Source: a virus. From it: a stretch of 43,506 bases of DNA. A program made the position numbers and the translations under genes. The stretch covers positions 1 to 43,506 of the IMG/VR virus record IMGVR_UViG_3300025133_000227. One strand, 5' to 3'. The notes beneath the pieces were generated by a model. The model did not search any database. It was not told the DNA's origin and saw only the letters and a list, made by a program, of their open reading frames with translations. Shown in pieces: positions 392 to 43,247 of this stretch (within the stretch, counting starts at the first letter, position 1; each line of letters begins with the position of its first letter).

Positions 392-399
392 TTACTTCC

Positions 400-639: not shown

Positions 640-649
640 TTCTTTCTCC

Positions 650-1156: not shown

Positions 1157-1167
1157 AATATATCCTT

Positions 1168-1641: not shown

Positions 1642-1919
1642 TATGGATTTGTATCCTCTACTACATTAGGTCTAGAAGTAATTCTTTTAATTCTTTTATA
1701 TTTATTATCATCTGAGGTGTCTAGTATGCTAATACTTTTAAGAGAAATCATATCAGTAGGTAAATAATAATCTCTAGTGCCTTCTGTTAATGCTTGTTTT
1801 TCAACTTTAGTCACAATATCTGTAGATGATTGAATTTGAGTAATTGCATCTTTTATAAATGCAATAGCAAGAGATGTATCTCTGGTATTAGCTCTTTCCA
1901 TTATTTCCAAAATAGTCAT
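1641..1919 (-). CDS. Hypothetical connector-like protein, 92 aa
   Basis: A 92-aa protein with a helical N-terminus (MTILEIMERANTRD, then FIKDAITQIQSS) and a beta-rich second half containing REYY-like and PTDMISLKSISILD segments. Its ATG overlaps the TAA of the 686-aa gene (TAATG), and its own stop touches the next gene, so it is tightly coupled on both sides. Helix-then-beta proteins of about 90-200 aa next to capsid genes are often head-tail adaptors. That is only a positional inference here. Confidence 0.7.
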   Translation of the reverse strand: MTILEIMERANTRDTSLAIAFIKDAITQIQSSTDIVTKVEKQALTEGTRDYYLPTDMISLKSISILDTSDDNKYKRIKRITSRPNVVEDTNP

Positions 1920-3979
1920 TATGTCGATGCCCCTTGTTCTTTACGTTGACTTGATTGTTGTGGCTCAGGAGCAGTTATAGAACCAGTAATTGCACTTAAT
2001 TCGTTAACAGCTCGTTGATAATACATCCCACTAGTTTGTATTGATTGTTGACTTTTTGAAGTATAGACTTGAGCAGCTTGTAATTTAGTCGTTGCTTCTT
2101 GTAAGTATTTATTAGCATCTGCTAATTCAGCTTGAAACTTTTGATTCCTAGCCCCAACAATTTGACCATAATTTTGCATATCCAAAGTAAATTGCTGAAC
2201 TTGTTTTTCCATATCTTTACTAGCCTTACCTATTTCAGCTTCATATTTTGAAATCTCACTAGAAATTCTTTGTCCTTCTTTTTGGACTTCTGCTTGATAT
2301 ACTTGCACATCTAAAGTAAAAGTTTGAATTGATTTACTTAAACTTGCTTGATACCTAGCAATCTCAGAATCAACTCTAGTTTTCTCTTTTGAAAGCTGAG
2401 CATTATAAATAGATACATCAACACCTGTCCTTTGTGCCTCTTTTTGTATCTCTGCTTGATAAGCAGCAACATCTGCTTGATATTTTGAAATGGATTTTGA
2501 AACTTCTCTTTCATATTTAGCTAAAGAAGAACTCATTCTTCCTGATTCCTTTTGAACCTCAGCACTATATTTTGTTATATCAGATTTTATTCTTGAATCT
2601 TCTTTTGACACAGCTGCATTATGCTTGTCTAACTTAGATTTTATTCTATTTGCTTCTTTTTGAACCTCTGATGAATATTTAGATATATCATTTTGATATA
2701 TACTCATTCTCTCACCTAATTTAGCAGAAAAAGCTTCTAATTTAGTTTTTTCCTTTTGAATAGCAGCCCCAGCTCTTTGCAATTCTATATTTGCAACTCC
2801 AACTGTTGAGTTAACCATTTCAGAATCTTCATCAGCCAACCATCCTTCGGCAGTTGTTGTATAAGCCCCACCACTAGCGTCATCAATTAATTTTTCTGCT
2901 TTTGTTAATGCATCTGTAATAGAAGTATTATCTAAAGAATGAACTCCTTCAGTTGGCTTAGTAACTGTAGTCGGAGATGAAAAATCAGATGGCAATGCTT
3001 CAGCCAATGAAAAACTACTAGGAAGAGAGCTTGAAATAGAAAAATCTGAAGGAAGAGGACTAATTATTCCATCGAAAGATGGTAAAGAAGAAGATATACT
3101 AAATGTTGTAGGCAACGCAGCGGATACAGCAATATCCGATGGAAGACTATCACTAAAACTAAAAGTTGGTAATGCCCTAGAAAGAACTATAGATGATGGC
3201 AATGAACCTGATATACTAAAAGTTAATGTACCACTTGGCTCAGAAGGTAAAATTATTGATGGAATATTACTTTTATAATTGTTAATTATTGTAGTAACAA
3301 TTGCATCTATTTGAGTTTTACATAAATCTCTATAAACAGAAGATAATCTAAAATGGTCAAGAGAAGCAGCATAAAATAATACTATATTCTCATATTCTGT
3401 CAATATCCAACTATCTGTATTCTCATCAATAATAGGAGGAGCAGAATAAACTATTACTCCTTTATCACCTGCTTTAGCCGCTATATTTTCAGAGATTCCA
3501 CCTAAAGGAGTATATGTTTGCTGACTGTCAGTGGCATTATAATCAGGGTCAGGCTTTATATATATTTTACCACTTAATTTATAAAATTTTGGAAACATCT
3601 TAGTTGCACTAAGCAAACTAGATGATTCGTCAAATATATGAATGTTTTTATCAGGAGATTCAGCCGCTACTCTCTTTTTCCCTCTATAATAATCAGTTGT
3701 TACAGAATTTAATGTTACAGACGTAGTTGTAGCTCCATCGTAACGGTAAACTGCTAATATTTTATCATATGCAATAGCAGAACCTTGACCTAAAGACTCA
3801 TAGTTATTAGTATCCACAGAATCCCAACCATTTACTTCAGTCTCGGACGCAATTGTCCATAAAAATTTTTCTGGTAAAGCCGATAGTAAAAACTTTGAAC
3901 CAGCGTTAATATATGGAACTAAATATCTAGACTTACTATCGTTCCCAGTAATATTATTTACTTTTTCCCAAATCTTCAT
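1919..3979 (-). CDS. Modular virion protein: adaptor-like head, SLPS repeats, long coiled coil (686 aa)
   Basis: Three regions are visible. Residues 1 to about 240 form a globular domain with a helical start (MKIWEKVNNITGND) and a beta-rich middle, resembling the connector-like proteins nearby. Residues about 245-340 hold a run of short repeats built on SLPS/ALPS followed by hydrophobic and Phe/Ser residues (such as SISSSLPS and LAEALPSDFS). Residues about 395-645 form a long coiled coil with degenerate repeats on the theme Y-x-A-E-V-Q-K-E and KY-x-x-E-V-x-K. The C-terminus is Gln/Ser rich. The layout suggests a fibrous tail or connector-associated protein that oligomerises through the coil. 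Enzymatic motifs are absent. Confidence 0.8.
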   Translation of the reverse strand: MKIWEKVNNITGNDSKSRYLVPYINAGSKFLLSALPEKFLWTIASETEVNGWDSVDTNNYESLGQGSAIAYDKILAVYRYDGATTTSVTLNSVTTDYYRGKKRVAAESPDKNIHIFDESSSLLSATKMFPKFYKLSGKIYIKPDPDYNATDSQQTYTPLGGISENIAAKAGDKGVIVYSAPPIIDENTDSWILTEYENIVLFYAASLDHFRLSSVYRDLCKTQIDAIVTTIINNYKSNIPSIILPSEPSGTLTFSISGSLPSSIVLSRALPTFSFSDSLPSDIAVSAALPTTFSISSSLPSFDGIISPLPSDFSISSSLPSSFSLAEALPSDFSSPTTVTKPTEGVHSLDNTSITDALTKAEKLIDDASGGAYTTTAEGWLADEDSEMVNSTVGVANIELQRAGAAIQKEKTKLEAFSAKLGERMSIYQNDISKYSSEVQKEANRIKSKLDKHNAAVSKEDSRIKSDITKYSAEVQKESGRMSSSLAKYEREVSKSISKYQADVAAYQAEIQKEAQRTGVDVSIYNAQLSKEKTRVDSEIARYQASLSKSIQTFTLDVQVYQAEVQKEGQRISSEISKYEAEIGKASKDMEKQVQQFTLDMQNYGQIVGARNQKFQAELADANKYLQEATTKLQAAQVYTSKSQQSIQTSGMYYQRAVNELSAITGSITAPEPQQSSQRKEQGAST

Positions 3980-14711: not shown

Positions 14712-14782
14712 AGCGGTGGAGGATTGGTATCCTATCTGGTCTCATAAGCCAGACTTCGTGAGTTCGATTCTTACCCCCGCTA
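14712..14782 (+). tRNA. tRNA-Met-like gene, anticodon CAT, imperfect
   Basis: The anticodon arm is canonical: CTGGT / GCCAG stem and a 7-nt loop with T33 before anticodon CAT (14743-14745). The T arm GTGAG-TTCGATT-CTTAC is also canonical. The D arm has the expected AGG/CCT stem and GG in the loop, and TGGAG before it resembles initiator tRNA. The acceptor pairs AGCGG with CCGCT, but its registers on the two sides differ by about two bases relative to the normal 7-bp stem, or else contain a T-C mismatch. CCA is not encoded. It could be a functional phage tRNA-Met/Ile2 or a degenerate, tRNA-like domain of the adjacent RNA. Confidence 0.75.
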
Positions 14783-14785
14783 CTG

Positions 14786-15875
14786 ATGATTCTAACGAAT
14801 GTCAATCTCATGTGGTAAGCCTGAGAAAGTGTAAAGTAAGATATCACTATAAAACAAACCAATAATGTACTAAAATAAATAATTGGTCTTACAAAAATTT
14901 GTCTTACTCAGACATTAAATGAGTCGGCTGCATATAGTCGTTAGATAAACCGAGTAATCGGTATAAAGTGGAAGCATCTTGAAGAGATGTTATAAGCGAT
15001 ACTATTTATAGTATTTGAGTATGCAATTGGGTTATATGTAAGGCTAAAGTTAAGTCTCTTTGAGCGGCTAAGTCTTATATTTGTGCTTGGGTAAAGTACA
15101 ATGAGGTAGTGATACCAATAAGAGAACCCATAGTAAATGGCATAAGTGTGCGAGCAGTTGCTATTTATAGTCGATATATGTTATCTTGTCGAAAGATTAA
15201 GATAATAGTTGTCAAGACCATATTCTATGTTTGTCGCAAAACATAAGTATAGGAGGTAGTCGTAGTATACTTGCTCGAAAGAGTGAGAACTACAATCAGC
15301 AGCACTACCTTCACCATACCCTTCTTTACCAATTAAGATTGGCAGGCTATACCTGCTATTCATAATAATAAAGAAAATCAATAGTCTGTTGACGGTTGAG
15401 AGCATAGGACACTTTACCTCTGAAACAATGAGGTGCATTAAATCCGAAAGATTTGATGTTCATGGTGAAAGCTCAGGTGACTTTATAAGTCTTAGGCGGT
15501 CGGCAGACTTGCACTGTAGTTATTAACTGTGTAGATAACTTAACCGATACGAGTGATGAGCGTTACTCATTGTGTCTGACAGGATACTAATCGCAAGATT
15601 AGTGGATAAAAGAGGGAAACAATAATCCTCTCAAAGACTTGTCGCTAATGACTGTAATCTCAGGTCAATCAAATTTGGATGTGTGGTAATCCGAGGGGAT
15701 ATACAGCTACCTTAAGCTGTGAAGTTAATCAAACAAAGGCTATTGCCGAAATAATGATGTGGGGACTCTCACTCATTTAGTGATACGATATCGAGGATTG
15801 CTCTGCACTCTACAATATGTGAACAACTGAGTAGATGATGTGAAGGGACTCGGCATTATATCCCCAAACTTTTTT
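14786..15875 (+). ncRNA. Giant structured non-coding RNA candidate (GOLLD/ROOL-like class)
   Basis: About 1.1 kb without a plausible gene, on the coding strand of its neighbours, between the tRNA-like gene and the phosphatase. Many perfect helices exist. GNRA-capped ones are ACCGA-GTAA-TCGGT (14949-14962), GGTA-GTGA-TACC (15105-15116), a 10-bp stem with GAAA at 15181-15205, CTTGCTC-GAAA-GAGTGAG (15270-15287) and ACTAATC-GCAA-GATTAGT (15586-15603). Others are at 14999-15014, 15081-15101, 15219-15253, 15329-15342, 15435-15459 (10 bp), 15611-15631 and 15703-15720. A three-tier arm (15252-15260 with 15303-15311, then GTAGT/ACTAC) holds one GAAA hairpin. GGGGATATA (15695-15703) pairs with TATATCCCC (15857-15865) to close the 3' domain. 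T7 follows at 15871. Size, density of tetraloops and neighbouring phage tRNA match giant phage RNAs; the family itself is unproven. Confidence 0.7.
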
Positions 15876-15897
15876 TAATCAAATTAGGAGAATGCTA

Positions 15898-16386
15898 ATG
15901 ATAGCAATAGTGAACAAAGAAAATGATACAGTGTATGAAAATGATGTAATTATAAGGAATGAGCCCGCGATAATGTGTGATTTAGATGGAACTTTAGCGT
16001 TAAAGCATAAAGGCAGAACTTGGTATGATGCCAGTACTTGTGACAGAGATTTAATAAATATGCCAATACTTGAAATATGTAGTGCATTCGCAAAGACTCA
16101 TCATATAGTATTTTGTTCAGGCCGTGAAGATATGTACAGAGAAGAAACTCGTGTATTTTTAAAGAAATGTTTTCACGATTTCATTGAAGGTCATGATTAC
16201 TCATTATTTATGAGAGAAAGTGGTGATTATAGAAAAGATTCTATAGTAAAACATGAAATATATCTTAAATCTATTAAAGATAAATGGGATATACTGTTTG
16301 TACTTGACGATAGAACTCAAGTAGTAACAATGTGGCGTAATGCACTCGATTTAACTTGCTTACAAGTAGCAGAAGGAAATTTCTAA
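15898..16386 (+). CDS. Polynucleotide 3'-phosphatase (HAD family, T4 Pnk C-terminal-like), 162 aa
   Basis: A HAD-superfamily phosphatase that should remove 3'-phosphates or 2',3'-cyclic phosphates from nucleic-acid ends. Motif I is CDLDGTLA (nucleophile D28, acid D30), motif II is FCSGRED (S74, R76), the Lys motif is in RKDSIVKHE, and motif III is VLDDRTQVVTMW (D137, D138). The closing CLQVAEGNF matches the phosphatase half of T4 polynucleotide kinase. The N-terminal kinase half is absent. I choose ATG 15898 because AGGAG lies 7 bp upstream, while ATG 15892 would be only one base from it. It follows the structured RNA directly. Confidence 0.88.
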   Translation: MIAIVNKENDTVYENDVIIRNEPAIMCDLDGTLALKHKGRTWYDASTCDRDLINMPILEICSAFAKTHHIVFCSGREDMYREETRVFLKKCFHDFIEGHDYSLFMRESGDYRKDSIVKHEIYLKSIKDKWDILFVLDDRTQVVTMWRNALDLTCLQVAEGNF

Positions 16387-23004: not shown

Positions 23005-23392
23005 TTATAAATGTCCATGTTGTGGATACACTAAAAAATCATCTAATACTTTTAACCCATCAAGACTAATAGCAAAACTAAAAAGAAAACGCTCAAGATT
23101 CACTAAAAGTATAATGAGAAAAGTTGTTAGTAGTATAACAACAAACATCCCAAGTGAAAATGATATAATAAAAGAATATTATTTTTATCAAGGGGTATCA
23201 CAGGTTTCAGACGAAATTGTAAAATATGGAATTCAACAATATCTAAATGGTAATTATTACTATAAAGGTAAAGGGTTTAAATATTTAACACAAATAATTC
23301 TGAATCACAATTCAAATAAAGATAAACAAAAACAGTTTGAAAGACGGATGATTGGTAAGCCACCATCTGTTGTAAAACTAAAGGAGGATTAA
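22991..23392 (+). CDS. Zinc-knuckle protein of unknown role, 133 aa
   Basis: Starts GTG at 22991 (GAAAGTG context). The N-terminus MTVLNYKCPCCGYTKKSS holds a CPCCG metal-type knuckle. The rest is basic, with KRKRSRFTKSIMRKVVSSIT and many Lys, and has several Tyr-rich stretches. Only one Cys cluster is visible, so a full zinc ribbon would need a partner. It could bind DNA or RNA. It overlaps the DUF932 gene by one base. Confidence 0.65.
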   Translation: MTVLNYKCPCCGYTKKSSNTFNPSRLIAKLKRKRSRFTKSIMRKVVSSITTNIPSENDIIKEYYFYQGVSQVSDEIVKYGIQQYLNGNYYYKGKGFKYLTQIILNHNSNKDKQKQFERRMIGKPPSVVKLKED

Positions 23393-24168
23393 TGTCAATT
23401 GAATCAACGTTGTTTCCCGTAAAAGAATACCCTGCTAACTTTGCTTATAATAGTGAAGCTGGCATAAGTGATGTAAATGTAAATACAGGTTATAAGTTTA
23501 TAGTACGAGAAGATACTAACCAGGTATTGAGCTGTATGACAGATGAATATAAGCTAGTACCTAACTCCCAAATAGTAAAGGCAGCTGAACCAATCTTAAA
23601 GCAGCATAAAGCAAAATTACGAGAAGCAGTTAGTTTAGGCGATGGACAGCGTACAATATGGAAATGGTCATTACCAAATTCGCTAATAGAAATTAGTAAA
23701 GGCGATGAAATGCATCCTGAGGTCATAATTAAAAATAGTTATGATGGAAGTTTGCAAGTTCATATATTGTCAGGTGCTTTTAGGCTAGTTTGTAGCAACG
23801 GTATGATTATAGGTAATATAATTGAAAAGTATAATTATAAGCATAATATTGGAAATGTCAATTTAGATAACTTAGAAGAAGTAATCGTTGATGTCATTGA
23901 GAAAACAGAAGAAGAAGGCAGACAACTACCATTACTAAAAGATACTAAACTCAAACAGTCTCACATAATCAAGCTTATAGAACTCTTCCCTTCCACAATG
24001 TCAGTGTTCATTGCACGGTATATGATTGCAAACAAGCCAAAAACATATTGGGATTTGTACAATGTTGCTACATATATCAATACACATAAAATGAATAGAA
24101 AATACAATACAACCCACCAATTAGAAAACAAATTGTATTCATCAGTAAAGAAATGGGCTACTGCATAA
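23392..24168 (+). CDS. DUF932 (phage/plasmid-like) protein, 258 aa
   Basis: This matches the DUF932 family found in phages and plasmids. The YKFIVREDTNQVLSCMTDEY opening, then KAKLREAVSLGDGQRTIWKW, and the central GAFRLVCSNGMIIGN are features of that family, in which the V-C-x-N-G-M motif is the most recognisable. The function is not established. Members are often near replication and recombination genes, as here (SSB upstream, methylase and helicase downstream). AGGAGG lies before the ATG. Confidence 0.8.
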   Translation: MSIESTLFPVKEYPANFAYNSEAGISDVNVNTGYKFIVREDTNQVLSCMTDEYKLVPNSQIVKAAEPILKQHKAKLREAVSLGDGQRTIWKWSLPNSLIEISKGDEMHPEVIIKNSYDGSLQVHILSGAFRLVCSNGMIIGNIIEKYNYKHNIGNVNLDNLEEVIVDVIEKTEEEGRQLPLLKDTKLKQSHIIKLIELFPSTMSVFIARYMIANKPKTYWDLYNVATYINTHKMNRKYNTTHQLENKLYSSVKKWATA

Positions 24169-30766: not shown

Positions 30767-33700
30767 CTAACAATACCTCTTTATATCTAGTTTAGACCTA
30801 CTGATTATAGAATTAATTGGAGCTAAATCAAATTCTGAATGTTTTAGTTTTCCTGCATCTGTTGTATAGTCTCTATCCCTTTTATTAATTTCCTCATAAA
30901 GAAAACGATGATAATGTTCAAGATATTCACCCACAACGCTATTATCAATTAACTGAAGTCGTTTGGTGTCACTACTAAATGGAGGAAGAGTCCCTATTTC
31001 TGCAACCTGTCTAAGCTGACCACCAACAGCCCTATCGTATCCCTCAAGAAAAGCATATGCACCAGCTCTTTTTTCTTTATTAGTAAGCTTTCTAAACTGT
31101 GGGGAGAAATCTGTAGCAAAATTTATCATTTCCTCGTTTGTATTCCATCCATCAATGCCAATACTTTCAGCCTCTTCCATATTTTTAAACATTCTTGCAA
31201 ACTGATTCCCCATTCTTTTCCCATAATCAACACCTTTTTCTACTTTAGCACTTGTCATCTCATCTCGCATCTTATCTTGCATCTGAGAAATTGCATAGAC
31301 ATGAGCACTAAAATATACATTTTCATTTAATATATGGGGACTTCCAGCCCACGACGGGTTTTCTTTTGAATATTTTTCCCAAAATTTTGCAACCTCAGTT
31401 GCTATCATTTCAGTAGGATGTAAAACAAAATTTGTACCTTCACGTTTAAATGAAGTTTTTCTAATAACACCAGCTAATTCTTCAAAATCTAGCCCTGAGA
31501 ATATATTATTTTTACTATCTGTAAACTTTTTCAATAAAACAGAAAGAGAAATACTATTAGAAAGAGTATGTGCACCTCGCTGATGGTCTCTGCCTCTTCT
31601 TATATCAGCCGCTGGTTTTAATTCACTTAATAAACGAGTAATAACTTGCACATCACCTTCTGTCAATGGTTTTCCATCGCTTCTTTTAAACATCTTTGAA
31701 CGAAAATCAGTCATTTCATAATTCCAACCTTCCAATAAAAGAAACTCAACATTATCAACAGCTGCTTGTAAATAAACTCTTAGTAATTCACTAAATGTGT
31801 CTGTAATTCCACTCCCAGAAACTACCTTGTTGCCATCTTTCCTTTCATCTGTTATCTTATCATTTAATCCAACTAATTGTAATTGATAAGTATTTCCTTT
31901 TGATTGTTTTATTTCAACATAATTAAATGTTTGTTGTAAAATACCATAATAGAGAGCTGCGTTTGCAATCTCTGGGACAGCTTTTTGTCCCCAAGTAATA
32001 GCCTCAATTAATTTATATAAATCTTCTCTTCTGCTTAAATCATAAGACTTTTTACCTTTTTGATATTTCTTTAAATCAACAGCCTTTACATCCAACGCTT
32101 CATATGTTGATACAAATAATTCTTCCATTCTTGGAGAAAGTTTTTCTAAATTAACCTTGTCGCCATCCCCATCACCTTCTAAATCTTTAAATATAAGAAG
32201 AGGATGTAAATGTACTTGACCCTGCCTATTATGAAGCTCTTTTACAGTAACCATATTAGCTCCACCTAAATGAGAAACAGGCGAACGAGTGATTAGCATT
32301 TTATAATTAGCAGTTTCTAGCCATTCATTTATTGCATCCATTCCATGTCGTTGAAGTGTTTTGAAATCTCTCGTATCATTATGACTATCAGAATCTTCCA
32401 TATAGGCTTTAATAATATTAGAAGCATCTTGTATTGAAACTCTTGCTTCAAGATATTCTAATTCCCCTGTATAATCAACAAGAACATCTCCCATCATACC
32501 TGGCTGTCCTTCTAGACCAAGAGCTGGAAGGTTTAGTTGAGTCTGGACAATTTTATCAAGAAGAGTACTTCCAAATTTATGCATACCCAAACCATTTTTA
32601 AACATTTCATGAGCAACATCGGGGAGAGCATTAGGGCTCGCAGATAGCCTTCTAAAAAATTCAGCGATATTTTGTTGAGCATTTCTTCTATTTGTAGCTT
32701 GTCCTAATAAGAAAACTTTTCTTAATTTTTCTCTTATCTTTGGGAACACCCCTTCTTTCCAAGCCTGTAATATTTCCTGATTATGCATATAGTTATATAA
32801 TTGCATAACCCCCTTTGCCGAATCGTGGGTCTTATCTTCCATATTCAGTAAGCCAAAAGCTGTTCCTGGGATTGAGAAATTTCTTCCAGCACTAAATTCC
32901 CCTCCAAAAATCTTAGCTTCATCATCTGTTAATAAAACATCAATATCTTTACCTTCAGAATCTTTTATATATCCTGCTGCATCTATTTCAGCTACTAATT
33001 TTTGATTAGACTTTCCATAGTTTTCATAAATCTTAACAGGGTATGGGGGTCGAAAATGCTTGTGCTTTACAAATAGTTTATCAAGGTTTTCATTTATCGT
33101 CTGAATTACTGTTTTTACCTTAGACGTTCCAGGCTTCATACCAAAAGCTTTTATCATAGCTTTAATTAATCTGGTGGATGTTAAAGAAGAACCATCTAAT
33201 CTATATTTTTTATTTCCCCTAGAAACCTCATATAACGATTCTACTTCTACCTCTTTTCCATCTCTTTCAATAACAAAAGATGCTTTATCTTTATTAAATA
33301 TATGTCCGACAGCAACTGGCATATTCTTAGAAACAACACCAGGGGTCAATGGGAGTTTTATCCTTTTAAAAACCTTTTCCCCTTGCTCTTTTAGATAGCC
33401 AGGAAACATTCTTTCCATAGCCTCATGCCTTGCAATTTCCTCTGCTCTAAATAAATTTATATCAACTCCCTCAATACCTTCAAATCTAAGTCCTAAAAAA
33501 TTATCAATCTGTTTTTTGGTTAATTCTTTATCATCCCAATAAGCCTCTGCATTTTTACCATTCTCAATATGCTCTTTGGTTAACTTAATAATTGCATATC
33601 TTTCTTTTTCACCCCTATTTAGTACAATCATCATTCCTTGTTTTCTTAACGCCTTTTGAAGCTTAATTAAATCTTTCCATTTAAAGGAATCATATTTATC

Positions 33701-36700
33701 CTCTAGACCGTAACCAAATTGTGTTCTTATTTTTATATCCTCACCATGAATCCAGACTATATCTGATATATTTATATCGTTCTCTATTAATGTTCTTACT
33801 TCATGAGAAGGATTAGTCTTGCCCCCAGTAACTGGCCCCTTTTGAGTTATTGTAAAACTTCCATCTAATTCAATTAGAAGTTCATAATGAGTTTTATCCT
33901 GTTTTTCTGATTCTTCAGTCCCTACTTCATTATTAGTACTCGACCTATTGTTCAAACTGTTGTACAGTCTTATAGAAAACATTTTCTTTGTGTCTGTAAA
34001 GCTTTCATAAGGCATTCTTAACATACTTGCAACAGCTTCATGAAAAGTTTCAACATCAGAGTTTTTTGATTGAAATACTAAGTAAGATATATCTGTATTA
34101 CTAAACACACCAAGACCTCGCACTTGAGTAAAGCTGTTTTTCGATAGAACTTTTAAATCTTGATTTCTATCAGAAATAGTCAATAATTGATTTATCTCTT
34201 CTGAAAGGTCATCAAAGTATCTTTTTGAATCATCCATTATAATTTCAAGTTGAATATCTCTAGTTTCTGAATTTTCTGGATATTTCCTATCAATCAACCA
34301 TTGTTCTAAAATTGGTTCATACAAGGAGTTCATATCTTTTTTGTAAAGTCCCTCAAGATAATGAGTTATTAATGCGTGTTCTTGCTCAATGCTTACTCCT
34401 TCAGCTCTATACCCTTGCTTTGTTGAATATGACTTAAAAGCTCTATAGCCATTCTCAAAAGTATTATATACCTGCACCCATGTACCTGAGTTCTCTGGTA
34501 TCTCCTGGAGTCTTTCCTTGCCTGTCTTTTGAACTGTTTGCTTTGCTATGCTATCTTGATAAAACTTTTCAGCTAAATAGTCCCCAACCTGTTCTTTCTT
34601 TATATTCCCAAACGCTTTTCTAATACTTAACCAAAATTGCTTTAACCAAATACCAATTCTTTTAGAAATAGACTCTACTTGTATTCTATTTGCATAATAT
34701 TCACCTATATATTGAACAAGTCTTTCTTCTGCTTTTTCTAAAGTATCTCCCTCCATCATAAATTTTTGGATACCTTTTTGGATAATAGGCATATCTCTTA
34801 ATAAATCAATATATATATGTGCATATTCATGTGGAATCGTATCAAGCGTCCCCCTTGTTAAGCTCCAATAAGCAATATCATCTATTGCTTTTCCTGCTAT
34901 TTCCCTACCATACCTATCATAAACTCTCTCAACAGCTTTTGGGGTAATAAATGGAAATTGCTTTTTAAGTCTTGATGCTATCTTAGCAGCTAATTCTTTA
35001 TTATTATCTATTCTTTGACCTTCAGTAAATTCTTGTAATTTCTCATTTGTATCATTATTCTCAATAGCACCTTCTCTATTGATAATATGATTAAGTTCTT
35101 CATAACTACGACCTTGCCCAGGTTCTATTAATTGATGTGGTATAACTACTTTTTTAGCTGCCCTTGTAATTGCAGTATAAAGCCACCTAACCCTATTCAC
35201 AAGGTCTTTGCCAAAATTCATTTTTTCAAGTATATACACATTATCCCATTCACTCCCTTGAGACTTATGGGCAGTGACAACATATCCATAGGTATTAATA
35301 TTGACAGTGTTACCTAACTTAAGTTTTCCTTTTTTAGTTTGCATCATCCAATTTTCATATTCCGAGAAAAGCATTCTTCTATCTTCCTCTGTAATCATTT
35401 GACCGTGCAAAGATGGTTCTTTCACATCAGGTGCAAAGAAATGATTTTCACCTTTTGAATTTATATAGGGATATAAAGTAACAGGCAACTCTTTCCATTC
35501 CATTTGATTGGTTTGATAATTCCACACTTGTTTATTATAATGGACAACAATTGGGTCAAAAATTTCGCTTACCTCTCCTTCGTTCTCAAAAATTTCACCA
35601 TTTTTCCTTCCATGTTGGGCATTATTAATAACTATTATTCTTTCATCGTCTTGTATAACTTTATCTTTAGCTTTACTCCCATACTTTCTATTCCTAGTTC
35701 TACGATTTTGTTCTACTCTTGAGTCATTTGTAGCAACAATCATAATAGAATCTTCACCATCTATAATATCCTGATAAAATTGCTCTTTCACTTCATTCCT
35801 ATCTAGGATAACAAAATCATCTGTTGATGACTTTGGAAGCACTATCTCTTTTTTTATTCTTAAAGCAGTAGCTACTTTTATAATAGCACTTTCAGCTGCT
35901 TGGCGAACAACCTGGGTAAGCTGTATTCCTAGCTTTTTATGACGAGCCATTAAATGAGGGTCACCGCCAACAGGGGCTAACTGAAATCCATCCCCAATTA
36001 ATATAAGTTTAGCACCAGTACTTAAAATAACATCTTGTAAATCTTCCCAAAGCTCTTCACTAATCATTGAAGATTCGTCAATAATTATAAGATTATTTGA
36101 ATCATAAGTATCAGGCTTTAATTCCCATTGACCAGTTGCCTCGCTTGGCTCTCCATAAAGCATACTGTGTATTGTAGAAAAATTACTATCATATCTGCTT
36201 CTCTTTACACCATCTATTGTCATTACAGACTTTTCTTTTAATCTCAATACTGCCTTATTAGTAGGAGCAATGACATCAATAGTATAGCCATTTCTAGAAG
36301 CATAGTTTACAATGTTCTCAACAATTGTTGTTTTACCAGTCCCAGCATAGCCAGCAAAAACAAAAGGCGTATTTATACCTTCTATTTTCTTCCCTACTCT
36401 AGAAAGAAAATCTACTATTTTAGTTAAAACATTTTTCTGACCACTTGTATAAGTAAAACCATCTGAATCGATTCTGTCGTTAAGTATGTTATTATCAGGA
36501 TTCTTTTCAAATTTCTTCTTAATAATTTCATCATCAATAGTAGGCTCTGGCTCATTTGTTTTCTCTTTTAGATTTTCTTTAGACTCTTCAACCTGATTTT
36601 CAGGTTTAGACTTTTCCATCTCAGCTTCCGCTTCTTTTCTATCTCTCTCCTCTAATCTTTTTTGGGCTTTAGCCATTTCAAGAACATTTGTTGGGGTATG

Positions 36701-39700
36701 TCTAACAGTCTTTTCTTCTGCTGCGGGCTTTTCATATAAAGCTTTTATAGCAGCTTCGCCTTCTTTAGTTATACCAAAAGGTCTTAATTTTGATTTAGGT
36801 CTTGCTCCTATTCCTGCATAATTATTAGATAAAACGGGTGCTTCAGCTTTTACAAATTTTTTCCCATCCCACTTATTCCATTCATTTTTAGCTAAATTAA
36901 AAACATGAATATCTTTTACACCTAAATCAATAGCCATTTGAACAGCCCAACCTGTTCCACCTTTTACTTGAGTGTCTTGAGTTTCTAAATGACCAACTGC
37001 TACAACTTGGTCTACATCTTTAACTTGATAATAATTTCTTCTAAGTAAATTTCTTACATCCTCCTTTTTTGGAATTTTTCTTTTTAGTGTCTTATTAGCC
37101 TTTTTAAGAAATGTATCAGCCTTCCTTAATTGCTCTGGTAATAGCTTATACCTATTTTTACTCTTAGTTATATGACCCTTAAAAGAAAATGCTTTTACAA
37201 CATGACCTGCTGCTTTGGCAAATTTCTCAAATATAGTATCAGCTCCCTGAGCACCCCCAGAATGTAAAATAGGCTTACCTTTAGGAATCTCTTTAGCTTT
37301 TTTAGGAGAAGTCCTTTCTAATATCCTTGTCAAAGCAGTGGCTTGGTTTACGCCACCTTCTTTAGAAAACATATCAGTAAGCTTCTTGCCTTTAGACTTC
37401 TCTCTTAAATCTTCTATTAAATCTGGGTTTTCATCTGCCCATCTGTCCCATAATGCTTGATACTCAGCGTCTAAATCTTTATTTTTATCTTTAGGGGCTT
37501 TCCCTTTCCCCTGACTCATTGATGCATATCCCTTGACGTTTACTTGATAATGATGCTCAATGCTTTTTCCATCAGATAATATTGCATTAAAAGCAGAGAA
37601 TCTTGCGTCACCTCTAGTGGTAACTTCATAAGTTTTCTTTTTTGGTAATTTTTGATGAACTTCTTCTTTTTCATCTTCAAATAATTCTGGATGTTCTGCT
37701 CTATCGTGGGCTTCTACAGCTTCTTCTACTTTTTTAGATTTTTCTAAATCATCTATTTCGCTTAATAAAGCTTTTTTATTTTTTTGCTTGACATTCTCAA
37801 TGCCTAATCCCTGCGCTCTTTTTCTTAACTTAGGAAGTGTTTCTGGCGTTATATCTAATGCACCAGATTCTTCCTCTTCTTGAGTTGGAGGTTCATCAAC
37901 AATTTCATCTTTAACTGGTTCATCTGTAATTTCATCTACTCTATTGAGTATTGATAAACTGGCTTTTTCAAGTTGTGTTGGGTCGCCTTCATCTACAGCT
38001 GCTATCCCAGTTTGAAGTTTATCTATTTCTTCATCTGTTAAATCATCAACAACCTCATCATCTACCTTTACAGTAAATTCTCCCTTACTATAATTTACCT
38101 TTACTCTATCTAATCCTTTTTTAGTAGTTTTTTTCTTAGGCTTTTTTTCTTTCTTTGGAGGGAGTTCAGTCTCTTCGGCTTTCTCAACTTTTATTTCATC
38201 AGTAATGTCAAGAGCATCAGCTTCTTCGTCTATTTCATCTACTATCTCATCAGATGGAGCTTCTTCTATTAGAGAGTCTTCGTATAGCTTTTCAAGTCTA
38301 TCAACATCTACCTCCTTATCATAAGCCTTAATAAGCTCGAATAAATCAAACCTTTTATTTTCACTCATATCACCGAGTAAGTCAATATTCTCTTCTAAAG
38401 CCTTACTTATTTCATCAGCAGCGCCTTTGGGGTCATCTCTATATGATTTTTGAAGCTCTTCAGCTATTTCTTTTTCCTCTGGAGTCAGATTATCATAAGA
38501 ACCTATAAAAGCACCCAAACTAACTCTAGCATTAGATTTAGATATAGGCTCAGCTTCCTCTTCTGCTTGGCTTTTTTGTTCCTCAAATATTTCTTCTTTT
38601 ACATCTTCTGAGGTTTCAGACATTACTTGTGCAATTCTTGTCTTTCCACTAAGAGCAGTTTTAGCCCCAGGCAATAACCCCATAGTAATACCCATAGCAG
38701 CCCCTGAGTAAGCAGATTCAACAGCTTCAGGTGTAAACATTTGCTTATGTAAATATTTTAATGCAGATTCAGGAACCTCTTCATATCCTCTTTTATTATA
38801 ATAATTTATTAATTCAGATGTTAAATATTGACTCCACTCAGTCCCAGATTCTAAAATAGCCTGTTGAATCATTGGTTTTGTGATAGTTCTACCTGTTTGT
38901 AAAGCCCCTTGCTTTTGAAGAGCATTTATCATCCTCTCTTCAAACATTTTTCTATTCTTAATTGAGCCAATACCTAATCGCTTTTTAAAAGTACCATAGG
39001 GTATATATTCAAGTATACCAGACGCAACAGCATAAGCAGCCCCTGATATTCCAGCGACTTTATTTGCTTGTTTTAAATCAACACCCTTTTCTAATAAATA
39101 TTGTATAGTGCTATTGTATTGCTCAGAACCTTCTAGCCCACCCATAGTAGCCATAGTACCAGCAGTTCTTATTTTTTCAGATGCTTTTACAAATTTAGTT
39201 GCACCAGATACTGCAGTTGAGCCTTTCTTAGCTGCTGATATAGCCTTAAAACCACCAGTAGCAGCTCTCAGTGCAGTGCCACCAATGCCATAAGTTACAA
39301 GATTTAAACCAACATCTACTGCTAGCATAGCAGCTATTGATGGAGCAGCTTGAGCAAGACCTCGTTGAAACATTTGAGGTTGTAAGAAATTCTGAAGACT
39401 GATTGGCTCATCTTCCATCCAATTTAAATAACCTTGAAGCTCAGGGTCTCTCATTCTTATTCTTGTGTCTTCAAGAGACTTTTGACGTAATTCTTCGCTA
39501 TATTCTAATAAATCTTGATTCCCTGTTAGCGCAGCAAGTCCACCAACAGCTGCTGATGGTATATTTGCCAACATTTCTTTGGCTTGGAATACAGAAAATT
39601 GTGTATCGCTTCCTCTTTCGCTGCCTTTTATTTTATATAAATTAGATAAAGATTCTTTATTAAATAAATCTCTATGTTCAGGATAATATCCTAAATATTC

Positions 39701-39790
39701 TCTTGCTAAATAATCATCCCCAACATTAGATAATTCAGGTCGCTGCCCTCTTATAATGTCAGCGTACTCTTTTACAGTTAAATTCTGCAT
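30767..39790 (-). CDS. Giant polyvalent virion protein with SLOG, SF1 helicase, metallopeptidase and RNA-polymerase-like domains, 3007 aa
   Basis: Domains in order. Residues 1-400: helical region with hydrophobic stretches (AAPSIAAMLAVDVGLNLV), as in internal virion proteins. 400-780: disordered acidic/Lys-rich linkers. About 780-1010: SLOG/Rossmann domain, with SGGAQGADTIFEKFA and NYAGIGARP. About 1110-1570: SF1 helicase, Walker A GYAGTGKTT (about 1145-1153), Walker B IIIDESSM (about 1235), LIGDGFQLAPV, VTAHKSQGSEWD (about 1507) and YTAITRA (about 1540). About 1650: HEYAH zinc-metallopeptidase motif. 2316-2545: RNA-polymerase-like region, with K2320 and K2326 in EDKTHDSAKGV, RSPVSH (2502-2507), HLHPLL (2528-2533) and D2540/D2542/D2544 in DGDGDK. 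A later helix LQAAVDNVEF could be a bridge-helix equivalent. The assignment to a virion-injected polymerase is inferred. Confidence 0.85.
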   Translation of the reverse strand: MQNLTVKEYADIIRGQRPELSNVGDDYLAREYLGYYPEHRDLFNKESLSNLYKIKGSERGSDTQFSVFQAKEMLANIPSAAVGGLAALTGNQDLLEYSEELRQKSLEDTRIRMRDPELQGYLNWMEDEPISLQNFLQPQMFQRGLAQAAPSIAAMLAVDVGLNLVTYGIGGTALRAATGGFKAISAAKKGSTAVSGATKFVKASEKIRTAGTMATMGGLEGSEQYNSTIQYLLEKGVDLKQANKVAGISGAAYAVASGILEYIPYGTFKKRLGIGSIKNRKMFEERMINALQKQGALQTGRTITKPMIQQAILESGTEWSQYLTSELINYYNKRGYEEVPESALKYLHKQMFTPEAVESAYSGAAMGITMGLLPGAKTALSGKTRIAQVMSETSEDVKEEIFEEQKSQAEEEAEPISKSNARVSLGAFIGSYDNLTPEEKEIAEELQKSYRDDPKGAADEISKALEENIDLLGDMSENKRFDLFELIKAYDKEVDVDRLEKLYEDSLIEEAPSDEIVDEIDEEADALDITDEIKVEKAEETELPPKKEKKPKKKTTKKGLDRVKVNYSKGEFTVKVDDEVVDDLTDEEIDKLQTGIAAVDEGDPTQLEKASLSILNRVDEITDEPVKDEIVDEPPTQEEEESGALDITPETLPKLRKRAQGLGIENVKQKNKKALLSEIDDLEKSKKVEEAVEAHDRAEHPELFEDEKEEVHQKLPKKKTYEVTTRGDARFSAFNAILSDGKSIEHHYQVNVKGYASMSQGKGKAPKDKNKDLDAEYQALWDRWADENPDLIEDLREKSKGKKLTDMFSKEGGVNQATALTRILERTSPKKAKEIPKGKPILHSGGAQGADTIFEKFAKAAGHVVKAFSFKGHITKSKNRYKLLPEQLRKADTFLKKANKTLKRKIPKKEDVRNLLRRNYYQVKDVDQVVAVGHLETQDTQVKGGTGWAVQMAIDLGVKDIHVFNLAKNEWNKWDGKKFVKAEAPVLSNNYAGIGARPKSKLRPFGITKEGEAAIKALYEKPAAEEKTVRHTPTNVLEMAKAQKRLEERDRKEAEAEMEKSKPENQVEESKENLKEKTNEPEPTIDDEIIKKKFEKNPDNNILNDRIDSDGFTYTSGQKNVLTKIVDFLSRVGKKIEGINTPFVFAGYAGTGKTTIVENIVNYASRNGYTIDVIAPTNKAVLRLKEKSVMTIDGVKRSRYDSNFSTIHSMLYGEPSEATGQWELKPDTYDSNNLIIIDESSMISEELWEDLQDVILSTGAKLILIGDGFQLAPVGGDPHLMARHKKLGIQLTQVVRQAAESAIIKVATALRIKKEIVLPKSSTDDFVILDRNEVKEQFYQDIIDGEDSIMIVATNDSRVEQNRRTRNRKYGSKAKDKVIQDDERIIVINNAQHGRKNGEIFENEGEVSEIFDPIVVHYNKQVWNYQTNQMEWKELPVTLYPYINSKGENHFFAPDVKEPSLHGQMITEEDRRMLFSEYENWMMQTKKGKLKLGNTVNINTYGYVVTAHKSQGSEWDNVYILEKMNFGKDLVNRVRWLYTAITRAAKKVVIPHQLIEPGQGRSYEELNHIINREGAIENNDTNEKLQEFTEGQRIDNNKELAAKIASRLKKQFPFITPKAVERVYDRYGREIAGKAIDDIAYWSLTRGTLDTIPHEYAHIYIDLLRDMPIIQKGIQKFMMEGDTLEKAEERLVQYIGEYYANRIQVESISKRIGIWLKQFWLSIRKAFGNIKKEQVGDYLAEKFYQDSIAKQTVQKTGKERLQEIPENSGTWVQVYNTFENGYRAFKSYSTKQGYRAEGVSIEQEHALITHYLEGLYKKDMNSLYEPILEQWLIDRKYPENSETRDIQLEIIMDDSKRYFDDLSEEINQLLTISDRNQDLKVLSKNSFTQVRGLGVFSNTDISYLVFQSKNSDVETFHEAVASMLRMPYESFTDTKKMFSIRLYNSLNNRSSTNNEVGTEESEKQDKTHYELLIELDGSFTITQKGPVTGGKTNPSHEVRTLIENDINISDIVWIHGEDIKIRTQFGYGLEDKYDSFKWKDLIKLQKALRKQGMMIVLNRGEKERYAIIKLTKEHIENGKNAEAYWDDKELTKKQIDNFLGLRFEGIEGVDINLFRAEEIARHEAMERMFPGYLKEQGEKVFKRIKLPLTPGVVSKNMPVAVGHIFNKDKASFVIERDGKEVEVESLYEVSRGNKKYRLDGSSLTSTRLIKAMIKAFGMKPGTSKVKTVIQTINENLDKLFVKHKHFRPPYPVKIYENYGKSNQKLVAEIDAAGYIKDSEGKDIDVLLTDDEAKIFGGEFSAGRNFSIPGTAFGLLNMEDKTHDSAKGVMQLYNYMHNQEILQAWKEGVFPKIREKLRKVFLLGQATNRRNAQQNIAEFFRRLSASPNALPDVAHEMFKNGLGMHKFGSTLLDKIVQTQLNLPALGLEGQPGMMGDVLVDYTGELEYLEARVSIQDASNIIKAYMEDSDSHNDTRDFKTLQRHGMDAINEWLETANYKMLITRSPVSHLGGANMVTVKELHNRQGQVHLHPLLIFKDLEGDGDGDKVNLEKLSPRMEELFVSTYEALDVKAVDLKKYQKGKKSYDLSRREDLYKLIEAITWGQKAVPEIANAALYYGILQQTFNYVEIKQSKGNTYQLQLVGLNDKITDERKDGNKVVSGSGITDTFSELLRVYLQAAVDNVEFLLLEGWNYEMTDFRSKMFKRSDGKPLTEGDVQVITRLLSELKPAADIRRGRDHQRGAHTLSNSISLSVLLKKFTDSKNNIFSGLDFEELAGVIRKTSFKREGTNFVLHPTEMIATEVAKFWEKYSKENPSWAGSPHILNENVYFSAHVYAISQMQDKMRDEMTSAKVEKGVDYGKRMGNQFARMFKNMEEAESIGIDGWNTNEEMINFATDFSPQFRKLTNKEKRAGAYAFLEGYDRAVGGQLRQVAEIGTLPPFSSDTKRLQLIDNSVVGEYLEHYHRFLYEEINKRDRDYTTDAGKLKHSEFDLAPINSIISRSKLDIKRYC

Positions 39791-39796
39791 ATAGGC

Positions 39797-40432
39797 TTAT
39801 TCGCCTTTATAATCTTTTAAATTCTTCTTATTAAATCTTGCTTTTCTAGTTTTCAACTGTGTATTAAGAATTTCCAATGCTCTTTCTCTATTCCTCAACC
39901 TTTCTTCACCAGTCGAATCCCCCCTACCTACATTTCTAAAATATTTATTATGAATTTCTTTTCTCTCTTGACGAATATCAGACATTTCTTGATTTAATAC
40001 CCCCAAAGAAGACTTTTTATCATAAGTATTAAAGACCCAATCTAAATCCCAGAACGGAACTTCACCTTCTTTTGCCTCCCAAAGAGTCTTTCTTTCATCA
40101 TATTCTTCTCCCAATTTAGAATATCGAGAAGAAGCTGAACGAAAATTTGCCATATCTTTCTTTAAAAGTTCATTTAGAGAATTAATAATTGGTTCTTTTT
40201 CGCCTAGCCACGCAGAATCCTCTTTAAATTCAGCATCTCTAAACAATTCACTTCCTTCGTAATTAACAGTATCTTTTTTCATTCCTCCTTGTCCTGCCCA
40301 AATTGCATAATCTTCCTTAAAAGACTCAGGTACCCAATTAGAAGCATCATCTGGGTATTCTTGTAAATCTTGTTGATACTTTAGAAATCTTGTAGAATCC
40401 TGTTTTGTATATTCTTTTTTATCTTGGGGCAT
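39797..40432 (-). CDS. Hypothetical virion-cluster protein, 211 aa
   Basis: ATG 40432 is chosen because TTGGAG lies about 6 bp upstream. An in-frame TTG four codons before it is less likely. The product is helical and charged (MPQDKKEYTKQDSTRFLKYQ start), with a Trp-rich middle (WEAKEGEVPFWDLDWVFNTY) and a basic end. It overlaps the 483-aa gene by 14 bp. The position just before the giant polyvalent gene suggests an internal virion protein. Not recognised. Confidence 0.75.
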   Translation of the reverse strand: MPQDKKEYTKQDSTRFLKYQQDLQEYPDDASNWVPESFKEDYAIWAGQGGMKKDTVNYEGSELFRDAEFKEDSAWLGEKEPIINSLNELLKKDMANFRSASSRYSKLGEEYDERKTLWEAKEGEVPFWDLDWVFNTYDKKSSLGVLNQEMSDIRQERKEIHNKYFRNVGRGDSTGEERLRNRERALEILNTQLKTRKARFNKKNLKDYKGE

Positions 40433-41870
40433 CTTTTTCTCCAAACTGCTCTAGCCAATATGCTTCCCTATCGGCTCTTCTCTTTATTCTTGAACTAATA
40501 TCAGTTTCTAAATCATCTTTAGATATTTTATCTACTCTTCTAATGAAACTATCCATTCCAATTACCTCCTCTAATAGATGGCGAAAATGTAGGTTTTCAT
40601 CTTCATCACCTGTGTCTATTGCATGGATTCTCATATAACCAAGAGTCTTCCGACCAGCATCTGTCTCAACAGGTCTGTTATCTGTAAAATATCTAACTAC
40701 TGCGTTCATATTTGGGGTTTTCTTATGTACTTCTGTTTTAATATCTAAATCACTAGCATAATCTTCATTATTAAATGTGATATGCTCATTAAAATTGTCA
40801 ACACCTTTTAATAAAGACTTCATCTTATTGGTATTATCTCTATGTACATTTTTTCTGCTTTTTTCAAATTTAAAAGAATTAGCAGGCACAGAAGTAAAAT
40901 TCCAACCAATTTTCTTTTGAATTGATTTATCTAATTCACTCTCAAAATAGCTTCTCATGTTCTGTGATATTGTTTGACCTTCAAGTTCTTGTTCGTCTAA
41001 TCGTAATTTTTCATCATCTTTTAATGATTTAGATTGAGTATCTCTACCTGTTTTTTTATCTTCACCGATGAACTGAGGTATCTTATCTAATAATTCTTTT
41101 ACTTCTTCTATATTCTCATTCTGACTAAATTGCATCAGTCTAATGGCTTCACTAAGATTTGATGTCGCTCTGTCAGAGCCGCTAACATCAAGGATTGCTT
41201 GTTTATCGGTAGTAAAATGTTTTAAAGCACTAAAGACTGCTCTTTTATCATCGTGCATCTGTATAAGAGGTTGGAAATGGTCATTAACTTTATCCCCACC
41301 AGCATCTAAATAAGATTTTCTAAGATTATTAACATTATTTATAAAAAATTGAGTATCTTTTAAATTCCATTTTCCTTCAAGCCTATCATCATCTCCTAAA
41401 TCTTCTATTAGCTCTTGAACGTTTCCTAAAGATTCTTTTAAAAACGCAGATTTCTCTGCTGTCTGAAGAGCTGTGCTAAATTTCATATTCATAGCATCTA
41501 TATAATTCTTTGCTCTAGGGTCACCATCTTGATTCATAGAATGAAGACTCTCCATTAAACCAGGTAGAGCTTTTTTTGCCTGCATAATCTCTTTAATATT
41601 TAAATCATCTCTTATCGTTTTATCCTTTGTATCGCCCTCTAAAAGAAACTCAGCAAATTCAGCAGCCGCAGTATCTATATCTAAAGCCTTTGATGCCCAT
41701 TCTTTATCTTCTCTTGTAAGTTGTCTATTTATTGCAATATTTGGGTCTGCTTTAGTATTTCTATCTATAGCTTCATTTAAAAGTCTAAAATCCTCTGCCT
41801 CGGTATAAGGATTTAATCTTTCTTGTGCTCTAAGTTTTGCTTCGTATCTTGACCCTATAGTTTGTGGCAT
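40419..41870 (-). CDS. Hypothetical internal-virion-type protein, 483 aa
   Basis: A 483-aa, helical, highly charged product (MPQTIGSRYEAKLRAQERLN start). No signal peptide, membrane span or Cys. Long Glu/Lys helices in residues 60-330 suggest a coiled rod. In podoviruses, proteins of this kind between tail genes and giant proteins are often core or ejection proteins. That is positional inference. It is 5 bp from the preceding gene and overlaps the next. Confidence 0.75.
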   Translation of the reverse strand: MPQTIGSRYEAKLRAQERLNPYTEAEDFRLLNEAIDRNTKADPNIAINRQLTREDKEWASKALDIDTAAAEFAEFLLEGDTKDKTIRDDLNIKEIMQAKKALPGLMESLHSMNQDGDPRAKNYIDAMNMKFSTALQTAEKSAFLKESLGNVQELIEDLGDDDRLEGKWNLKDTQFFINNVNNLRKSYLDAGGDKVNDHFQPLIQMHDDKRAVFSALKHFTTDKQAILDVSGSDRATSNLSEAIRLMQFSQNENIEEVKELLDKIPQFIGEDKKTGRDTQSKSLKDDEKLRLDEQELEGQTISQNMRSYFESELDKSIQKKIGWNFTSVPANSFKFEKSRKNVHRDNTNKMKSLLKGVDNFNEHITFNNEDYASDLDIKTEVHKKTPNMNAVVRYFTDNRPVETDAGRKTLGYMRIHAIDTGDEDENLHFRHLLEEVIGMDSFIRRVDKISKDDLETDISSRIKRRADREAYWLEQFGEKDAPR

Positions 41871-41875
41871 AATTT

Positions 41876-42439
41876 TTATCCTGCTTTGTAATCTGATGTA
41901 CCAGTGAATTTCTCAAGAAATGTATCTGGCGTTGATAGAATGCTTGATACAGTTGTATCCATTTCATGTTCAATTTCATCTATTTGTTTTTTAGTATTTA
42001 AACTTATAGATTGTTTTGTAAAGTTTTGTTCTTGAACAATTTGGTCAACTGTATCTTCATATTTATCATATACTCTTGTTCTTGTGTTGTCAACTGCCGC
42101 TGTTGCAGATTCATCTATTGCAAAATCGCCTGATGTAATTGCAAATTCTGAAGCTTTAACTGTATCCATTAGACTGTCTTGACCAGATGTGGTAGCAGCT
42201 TTCATCATACTTTCAGACTTTGCTTGATTTTGTTGTTTAGCTAAATCTGTTTCTTGACCAACTCTTTGTTTTTGTGCATGAGATACCTGAGTAGCTGCGT
42301 CTAAAGCATCTTTAGTATCATCTTCATCAGGCCCTCCGAAAATAGCACTACCAACTTTAGCAGTTGTGCTAATGAGAAATCCTGCAGTAACAGGGTCTAT
42401 AAAAGCGTATACTTGGACAAATTCAAATAGTTCAGTCAC
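41876..42439 (-). CDS. Hypothetical internal-virion-type protein, 187 aa, GTG start
   Basis: GTG 42439 is chosen because AGGAGG lies 8 bp upstream. A TTG two codons earlier is too close to that site. A hydrophobic N-terminus (VYAFIDPVTAGFLISTTAKV) is followed by a long helical, Gln/Ala/Lys-rich body (QVSHAQKQRVGQETDLAKQQ) and a Thr/Ser-rich tail. This layout (membrane-active start plus helices) is seen in small ejection proteins of podoviruses, which is only a suggestion here. The gene overlaps the end of its upstream neighbour by 8 bp. Confidence 0.72.
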   Translation of the reverse strand: MTELFEFVQVYAFIDPVTAGFLISTTAKVGSAIFGGPDEDDTKDALDAATQVSHAQKQRVGQETDLAKQQNQAKSESMMKAATTSGQDSLMDTVKASEFAITSGDFAIDESATAAVDNTRTRVYDKYEDTVDQIVQEQNFTKQSISLNTKKQIDEIEHEMDTTVSSILSTPDTFLEKFTGTSDYKAG

Positions 42440-43247
42440 TGCCAAATCCTCCTCTATGTTTTGCTCTCATAAGATTCCCACCTCCCCATGGATGACCATA
42501 AGGATTACTTGGGTCTATTTCTTCACTATATGAAAAATCATTAGTTGGATTTATATCATTATTCTTACTTTCATCTAACATAGTTTTTCTATCTGTAGCT
42601 GAAGCATTATTAAATTCTTTTGTGTTCATTATGGAACTCATTGGTCTATTCAATTTCTGAGAGAATGGAAGGTTATTATTGATTAATACTTGGGGATGCT
42701 CAGAAGCTCCTTCATCAATACTTTCCTTTATTACCTCAGTAGCATTTCCAACAGCAGCATTTTCTTCAAACTTCTCAACAGGGGCAGGTGTACCATATAA
42801 AGATGAAAGTTTAGTCCCTGATTGTTTCATATCTAAAAGCGACTCTGTTACACGAGGGCTTTCACTATTTCTAATCTGACCGATTGATTGTAATTCTTCT
42901 GTCGTATATGTTCTGCCTTCTTCATTCTTATAAGTTGCCTCATCTCTTTCGCTAAAATTTAATTTCTGTGACCAATTTTTAAAAAAACTTTTATTTCTAG
43001 TCGTCTTTCCTTCATCATTTTTATCAAAGACACCTAAATTCAGTTCTTCCAACTCAACACCTGCTTCTTCCGCCCCTGTCTCAATATTTTTATTTTTAGC
43101 TTTTGTAGGAGATGTCTTTACAGCATAAGCACCAAGCAAATCATCTATCTCTTCTCCAATTATATTAGCAGCAGCAGCTTTTCCTTGTTTGCCCTTTATC
43201 GACCTTACTTGTTTGGCAAGTTTTCTTCTTGATGCAACTATACTCAT
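42432..43247 (-). CDS. Hypothetical structural-cluster protein, 271 aa
   Basis: A 271-aa protein with a basic start (MSIVASRRKLAKQVRSIKGK), a long polar, low-complexity middle rich in Glu, Asn and Ser, and a Gly/His-rich end (HPWGGGNLMRAKHRGGFGSD). AAAGGAT precedes the ATG. Low-complexity polar sequence suggests a flexible linker protein in or on the virion. Family not recognised. Confidence 0.72.
   Translation of the reverse strand: MSIVASRRKLAKQVRSIKGKQGKAAAANIIGEEIDDLLGAYAVKTSPTKAKNKNIETGAEEAGVELEELNLGVFDKNDEGKTTRNKSFFKNWSQKLNFSERDEATYKNEEGRTYTTEELQSIGQIRNSESPRVTESLLDMKQSGTKLSSLYGTPAPVEKFEENAAVGNATEVIKESIDEGASEHPQVLINNNLPFSQKLNRPMSSIMNTKEFNNASATDRKTMLDESKNNDINPTNDFSYSEEIDPSNPYGHPWGGGNLMRAKHRGGFGSD

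Follow-up and report, generated by a model that had tools for sequence, protein, structure and literature searches.

A putative single-chain, two-barrel RNA polymerase within a giant and most likely virion-borne protein of an uncultured virus

To our knowledge, injected two-barrel RNA polymerases have been solved for only a few phages. The RpoC polymerase is a multisubunit enzyme with β and β′ on separate chains. The eukaryotic QDE-1 and RDR2, cellular RNA interference enzymes that use RNA templates, gather both barrels in a single chain, and the polymerase of phage N4 is T7-like (palm fold) and unrelated to double-psi barrels. Among phages, the closest solved structure to the locus described here is gp66 of the crAss-like phage phi14:2 (PDB 6VR4; gp077 in KC821624), a giant one-chain protein whose annotation lists it as a virion component on mass-spectrometry evidence. 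The ejected polymerase reportedly transcribes the first phage genes in phi14:2, and the same has been proposed for P23-45 (PMC7886860, PMC10770324). In P23-45 gp96, a two-barrel polymerase is joined to a giant virion protein that also contains metallopeptidase and membrane domains (PMC10770324), and the N4 virion RNA polymerase and the polyvalent proteins are giant ejected chains in which a polymerase and an MPTase domain are accompanied by diverse fused effector domains (PMC5512222). Here we analyze P0001, a giant protein of an uncultured virus, of which the C-terminal third (about residues 2030-2970) is very probably a single-chain two-barrel RNA polymerase of the crAss/QDE-1 kind. The assignment is computational, and is drawn from the homology of the catalytic segment, the conservation of its Asp triad, the fold of a sister family, and cargo domains in common with the crAss-phage proteins.

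The DNA analyzed (hereafter the window) is the whole of record IMGVR_UViG_3300025133_000227, 43,506 bases in length. The record is probably incomplete, since it has no terminal repeat and both of its ends cut through genes. One strand encodes TerL, the portal and a likely capsid protein and, at the far end, P0001 and its neighbor P0002, while the opposite strand carries DnaB, other replication genes and small genes. PHROGs analysis assigns the TerL to phrog_38 and the portal to phrog_156, as opposed to phrog_6681 and phrog_6547 for the phi14:2 proteins, and BLASTP reports no similarity between the window and phi14:2 proteins for TerL, portal, and the capsid candidate compared. Judged by TerL and portal, the phage would therefore be placed outside the Crassvirales, and its record of 43.5 kb (possibly incomplete) contrasts with the about 100 kb of the crAss-like phi14:2. 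Between the P0001 gene, on its upstream side, and the record end, three genes encoding 483, 189, and 271 residues (40419-43247, minus strand) had no counterpart in the relatives compared; their products are perhaps fast-evolving virion proteins. Elsewhere, the window harbors a full-length GOLLD RNA at 15252-15666 on the plus strand (RF02032, 200.8 bits, E 2.3e-55), near a tRNA-Met gene (14712-14783), as well as a polynucleotide kinase-type phosphatase (HAD_PNKP, E 4e-44; 15892-16386, plus strand) and a DUF932 protein (23392-24168). Early promoters were sought between 12.7 and 16.5 kb, where promoter-like matches do not exceed those of shuffled sequence and no convincing repeated element was found.

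The P0001 protein comprises, from its N-terminus, a region with hydrophobic stretches, a phrog_9995 domain, a SLOG/DprA-like domain, an SF1 helicase, a metallopeptidase-like domain, and the RNA polymerase core (Table 1). The SLOG domain, helicase, HEYAH region, and polymerase core all lie within one ORF, as in the phage-encoded polyvalent proteins, whose several effector or enzymatic domains frequently include an HEXXH metallopeptidase. The helicase is 24% identical to that of the crAss cr118_1 polymerase protein. The phrog_9995 family also occurs as a small hypothetical protein of phiKZ-like jumbo phages, to which the copy in a window relative (contig G010, below) is 50-60% identical. Neither Pfam nor PHROGs reports a match of P0001 to palm-fold RNA polymerase families, and a T7/N4-type polymerase was rejected on that ground. 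No other RNA polymerase gene is recognized among the window proteins scanned, as the original prediction had stated. Past the polymerase barrels, the conserved C-terminal block is possibly the trigger-loop region, judging from its position.

Table 1. Features of the P0001-P0002 locus in the window
Feature	Residues	Position	Strand	Basis or remark
P0001, giant protein ORF	1-3007 (3007 aa)	30767..39790	-	ORF list, domain searches
N-terminal region with hydrophobic stretches	69-515	38246..39586	-	25% identical to G011a N-terminus, E 4e-22
phrog_9995 domain	717-826	37313..37642	-	E 7e-28; 66% identical in G010
SLOG/DprA-like domain	838-979	36854..37279	-	phrog_768, E 4e-17; 42% identical to crAss cr109_1 counterpart
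SF1 helicase, Dda/RecD-like	1043-1550	35141..36664	-	phrog_325, E 2e-71; Pfam AAA_30, UvrD_C_2
Metallopeptidase-like domain	HEYAH at 1654-1658	34556..35071	-	47% identical over 178 aa to G011a (HEYAHIY)
Candidate barrel B (β-like)	2200-2330	32801..33193	-	K2226 (VKTV), K2242 (VKHK), K2293 (DDEAK); alignment
DKTHDSAKGV		32807..32836	-	rejected as catalytic lysine pair
Barrel A (β′-like) core	2490-2560	32111..32323	-	R2502-x-P2504, D2540/D2542/D2544; conservation, PDB profile search
Predicted Mg2+ site, Asp triad D2540-G-D2542-G-D2544	2540-2544	32159..32173	-	sole invariant columns of A4 (15 sequences)
Candidate bridge helix	2588-2621	31928..32029	-	long helix past barrel A in both models; low confidence in window model
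Conserved C-terminal block (AVDN...FKRSDGKPLT)	2670-2760	31511..31783	-	37% identical to G011a
P0002	1201 aa	27161..30766	-	directly downstream of P0001; homologues in same place in G010 (E 7e-9) and G011a (E 2e-8)

A segment like the catalytic one of RNA polymerase β′ had been predicted in P0001 from the sequence alone, and the three elements are indeed present, as R2502-S-P2504, H2529-P-L2531, and D2540-G-D2542-G-D2544, the last being the only DxDxD of the protein. The interval first assigned to them (32179-32842) stops at residue 2538, with the Asp triad (32159-32173) just beyond. The proline is separated from the first aspartate by 36 residues in the window and 35 in a sister phage, which fits the 33 residues of E. 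coli RpoC. Such a motif might be a chance DxDGD in a protein of unrelated fold, for example as part of a calcium-binding loop, and among 20,000 shuffles of P0001 a DxDGD alone does occur in 4.7%; RxP-(30-40)-DxDGD occurs in 0.12%, and the complete RxP/HPL/DxDGD order in none. As for HPL, it is part of the segment that the window shares with RpoC, but it does not define the family: among the homologues the window alone possesses it, and it was rejected as a family feature.

The tblastn search against 50,697 phage records did not return any match, either for the window segment or for the sister family, nor did the scanning of viral contigs by octamers with the window segment or the search of the contigs of TerL relatives with this segment and with P0002. 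A DNA pattern for GDGDGDK retrieved at least 119 stretches in viral contigs, most of them devoid of an RxP context, as a chance motif would be. One stretch, L225, exhibits RSP at the correct distance ahead of the triad and belongs to a 44 kb contig, G010, encoding a giant protein of 2,623 residues that is 24% identical to P0001 residues 2042-2964 (E 1.5e-43). The second relative, G011a, is a giant protein of 2,856 residues that reads HRQP...DGDWDGDH, i.e. the textbook DWDGD, and resembles P0001 at the N-terminus, in the HEYAH region (47% identical), and in the C-terminal block. In place of the P0001 cargo, it has a nuclease domain of PD-(D/E)XK-like type that shares 37% identity with crAss-phage proteins bearing the annotation RNA polymerase subunit. 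In both relatives, the next gene after the giant gene encodes a P0002 homologue, and the R, the P, and all three aspartates are kept, so that a loss of the aspartates among homologues, which would have told against the prediction, is not observed. When viral contigs were finally scanned with the alignment of all three sequences, these two relatives were again the only matches. The contig of G011a, G011 (L235-L241; IMGVR_UViG_3300030329_001359, 111 kb), has the TerL/portal/capsid set twice, along with two giant polymerase proteins that differ in type (2,856 and 2,993 residues), and looks like two related phage genomes joined, through assembly or truly.

The profile of the window, G010, and G011a sequences (A2) was searched with hmmsearch against 177,635 distinct PDB sequences. 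It reports ten matches, all with RNA polymerase β′ and in exact register on RxP...DxDGD (E 0.17-0.27). No single E-value is significant, and the notable part is the exclusivity to β′ together with the correct register; the ten entries being closely related, they weigh as about one observation. The same search with alignments A1, A3 (sister family), and A4 (joint) found no polymerase, and mixing families seems to dilute the profile signal.

Structural support comes from a family of syntenic sister phages. These share with the window a TerL 57% identical, a DnaB 55% identical, and homologous genes across most of the genome. The locus equivalent to that of P0001 encodes a giant protein of 3,045 residues and a partner of 936 residues (L049:5390-8197), neither of which shows BLAST similarity to P0001 or P0002. 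A partner gene accompanies the giant gene in the relatives examined (1,201 residues in the window, 936 in the sister), and its product is possibly a second ejected protein. The sister giant protein reads RTP...DHDYDK, and screening DNA for sequences encoding E(G/A)DxDxDKxN led to further proteins of its type, forming groups down to ~25% mutual identity. Their alignment shows little or no variation at the R, the P, the triad, and DKxN, and conserved lysines are found upstream in KPI, GKT, and DSAxK. The AlphaFold model of this family (A3, 15 sequences) reaches a pTM of 0.71, with the barrel A fold present near pLDDT 90 and a long helix (residues 608-643) past it. Foldseek analysis against the PDB returns first 6VR4, the phi14:2 virion RNA polymerase (E 1.6e-9, probability 1.00), followed by QDE-1 and RDR2, then by eukaryotic RNA polymerases; P23-45 gp96 is not among the structural matches listed. 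In agreement, hhalign of A3 against a set of eight polymerases from crAss phages and related sources (90.2%, E 1.5e-6) yields an alignment that begins at the upstream lysines and continues through the triad, the crAss enzymes reading RIP...DFDIDK or similar. Many crAss-phage proteins are also matched in the BFVD viral predicted structures, where close relatives (30% identical, TM 0.78) appear as well. The sister alignment found no match in GTDB genome contigs and therefore gives no host hint. With the syntenic proteins modelled as a polymerase fold, the PDB profile search returning β′ only, and the R, the P, and the triad standing at fixed spacing in the homologues, a chance DxDGD is largely refuted and scarcely credible, and the β′-like barrel originally proposed for P0001 is supported by conservation, profile search, and syntenic structure alike.

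How the window itself connects to these families depends on alignments. The window trio and the sister family align by hhalign in register at RxP...DxDxDK (E 0.0076). With the crAss polymerases, the trio is also in register, at a level that is not significant (P 0.16), and hhalign with the single phi14:2 sequence gives no match. In the joint alignment of 15 sequences (A4), the three aspartates are the only invariant columns, and R2502, P2504, K2226, K2293, and K2545 are near-invariant; R2502 and P2504 are present in every homologue covering the site, crAss and RpoC aligning in register. The model of the window segment is weak (mean pLDDT 43.6, pTM 0.31). The top 50 Foldseek matches listed for it consist entirely of RNA polymerase chains, predominantly bacterial β′, and include AR9 phage and cyanobacterial chains (probability 1.00), a result that is not independent, since sister sequences dominate the underlying alignment. 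One may ask whether P0001 retains a degenerate polymerase-like domain, a fold without activity serving as a structural or DNA-binding part of an ejected protein. The extreme overall divergence of the sequence and the non-Gly fourth residue of the sister DxDxD would agree with such a decay, although the missing glycine is not a sign of loss, since the active crAss enzyme also has DFDID. Against it stand the three aspartates as sole invariant columns across families, and R2502, P2504, K2226, and K2293 as invariant or nearly so; we consider a degenerate domain very unlikely.

Two barrels in one chain, with the β-subunit lysine pair of barrel B placed at K2320 and K2326, formed the second part of the original prediction. 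The two-barrel plan is well supported for the sister family, and for the window it is indicated by alignment, the model of the latter being too poor to judge barrel B. The B-before-A order is consistent in the alignment, and the sister-crAss hhalign alignment covers both regions. The lysine pair, in turn, did not withstand comparison: EDKTHDSAKGV is present, but no homologue has K2320, and between G010 and G011a, the window-type relatives, the former retains K2326 and the latter does not. Instead, K2226 (VKTV) and K2293 (DDEAK) fall on conserved lysine positions of every relative covering them, while K2242 is kept in G010, and in G011a too if a gap is shifted. These lysines align with KP..GKT..DSAxK of the sister family and with QPxK..K..VKVG of the crAss polymerases. 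Sequence comparison therefore suggests that K2226 and K2293, possibly with K2242, fit barrel B better than K2320 and K2326.

The resemblance to the crAss-like virion polymerase that had been predicted thus extends, with 6VR4 as the closest solved structure through the sister model, to the general architecture. P0001 and phi14:2 gp66 are both giant one-chain proteins in which a lysine region precedes RxP and DxDxD, although the window itself exhibits no significant pairwise or direct profile similarity to gp66. Some crAss polymerase proteins possess the same helicase, DprA-like, and metallopeptidase-like domains as P0001: cr118_1 is one chain of 4,646 residues that combines an HExxH motif with the polymerase, a region possibly of phrog_9995 type (E 0.002), and the helicase. 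The order differs, being cargo, peptidase, polymerase in P0001, and peptidase, polymerase, cargo in cr118_1. In P23-45 gp96, the polymerase is instead N-terminal, clampless, and part of the tape measure of a long-tailed phage. N4 offers a functional parallel, and the window TerL is weakly N4-like. P0001 also fits the polyvalent-protein idea (PMC5512222), in which cargo is exchanged on an ejected chain while, here, the polymerase and the partner gene stay constant.

Taken with its fused domains, the gene context indicates that the putative polymerase of P0001 is most likely virion-borne. It could otherwise be a two-barrel polymerase made after infection for middle or late genes, comparable to P23-45 gp64, since two-barrel phage polymerases outside the virion do exist (PMC10770324). 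Yet the P0001 gene is located among the late structural genes, on the strand of TerL, portal, and capsid, the giant chain with its N-terminal and peptidase-like regions is typical of ejected proteins, and the nearest proteins by fold and cargo are those of crAss phages, the phi14:2 one being an annotated virion protein; synthesis for middle or late genes is therefore unlikely. As a virion-borne enzyme, P0001 would be synthesized late and packaged into the particle, to leave it before the DNA or together with it. D2540, D2542, and D2544 in barrel A would bind the catalytic Mg2+ ions, and K2226, K2293, and perhaps K2242 in barrel B would face the triad. The ejected polymerase would transcribe the first phage genes as the DNA enters, with no need of the host enzyme. 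Pulling in, protecting, or processing the DNA may be aided by the helicase and the DprA-like domain, and the peptidase-like domain may release parts by self-processing.

The injected-enzyme design is therefore probably found also in an unrelated group of smaller phages. Its occurrence in phages with unrelated head genes implies that it has moved between lineages or predates the crAss-like phages. We tentatively envisage, as a possibility still short of even odds, that crAss/QDE-1-type virion polymerases occur widely among small phages of a separate lineage, in which polymerase, SF1 helicase, DprA-like domain, and peptidase are ejected as one chain coupling DNA entry, protection, and first transcription. 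If so, these very diverged families would help to bridge the distance separating phage polymerases from those of RNA interference. They already provide new diverged sequences for relating phage polymerases to the eukaryotic RNA-interference enzymes, and P0001 suggests a phage able to begin transcription without the host enzyme.
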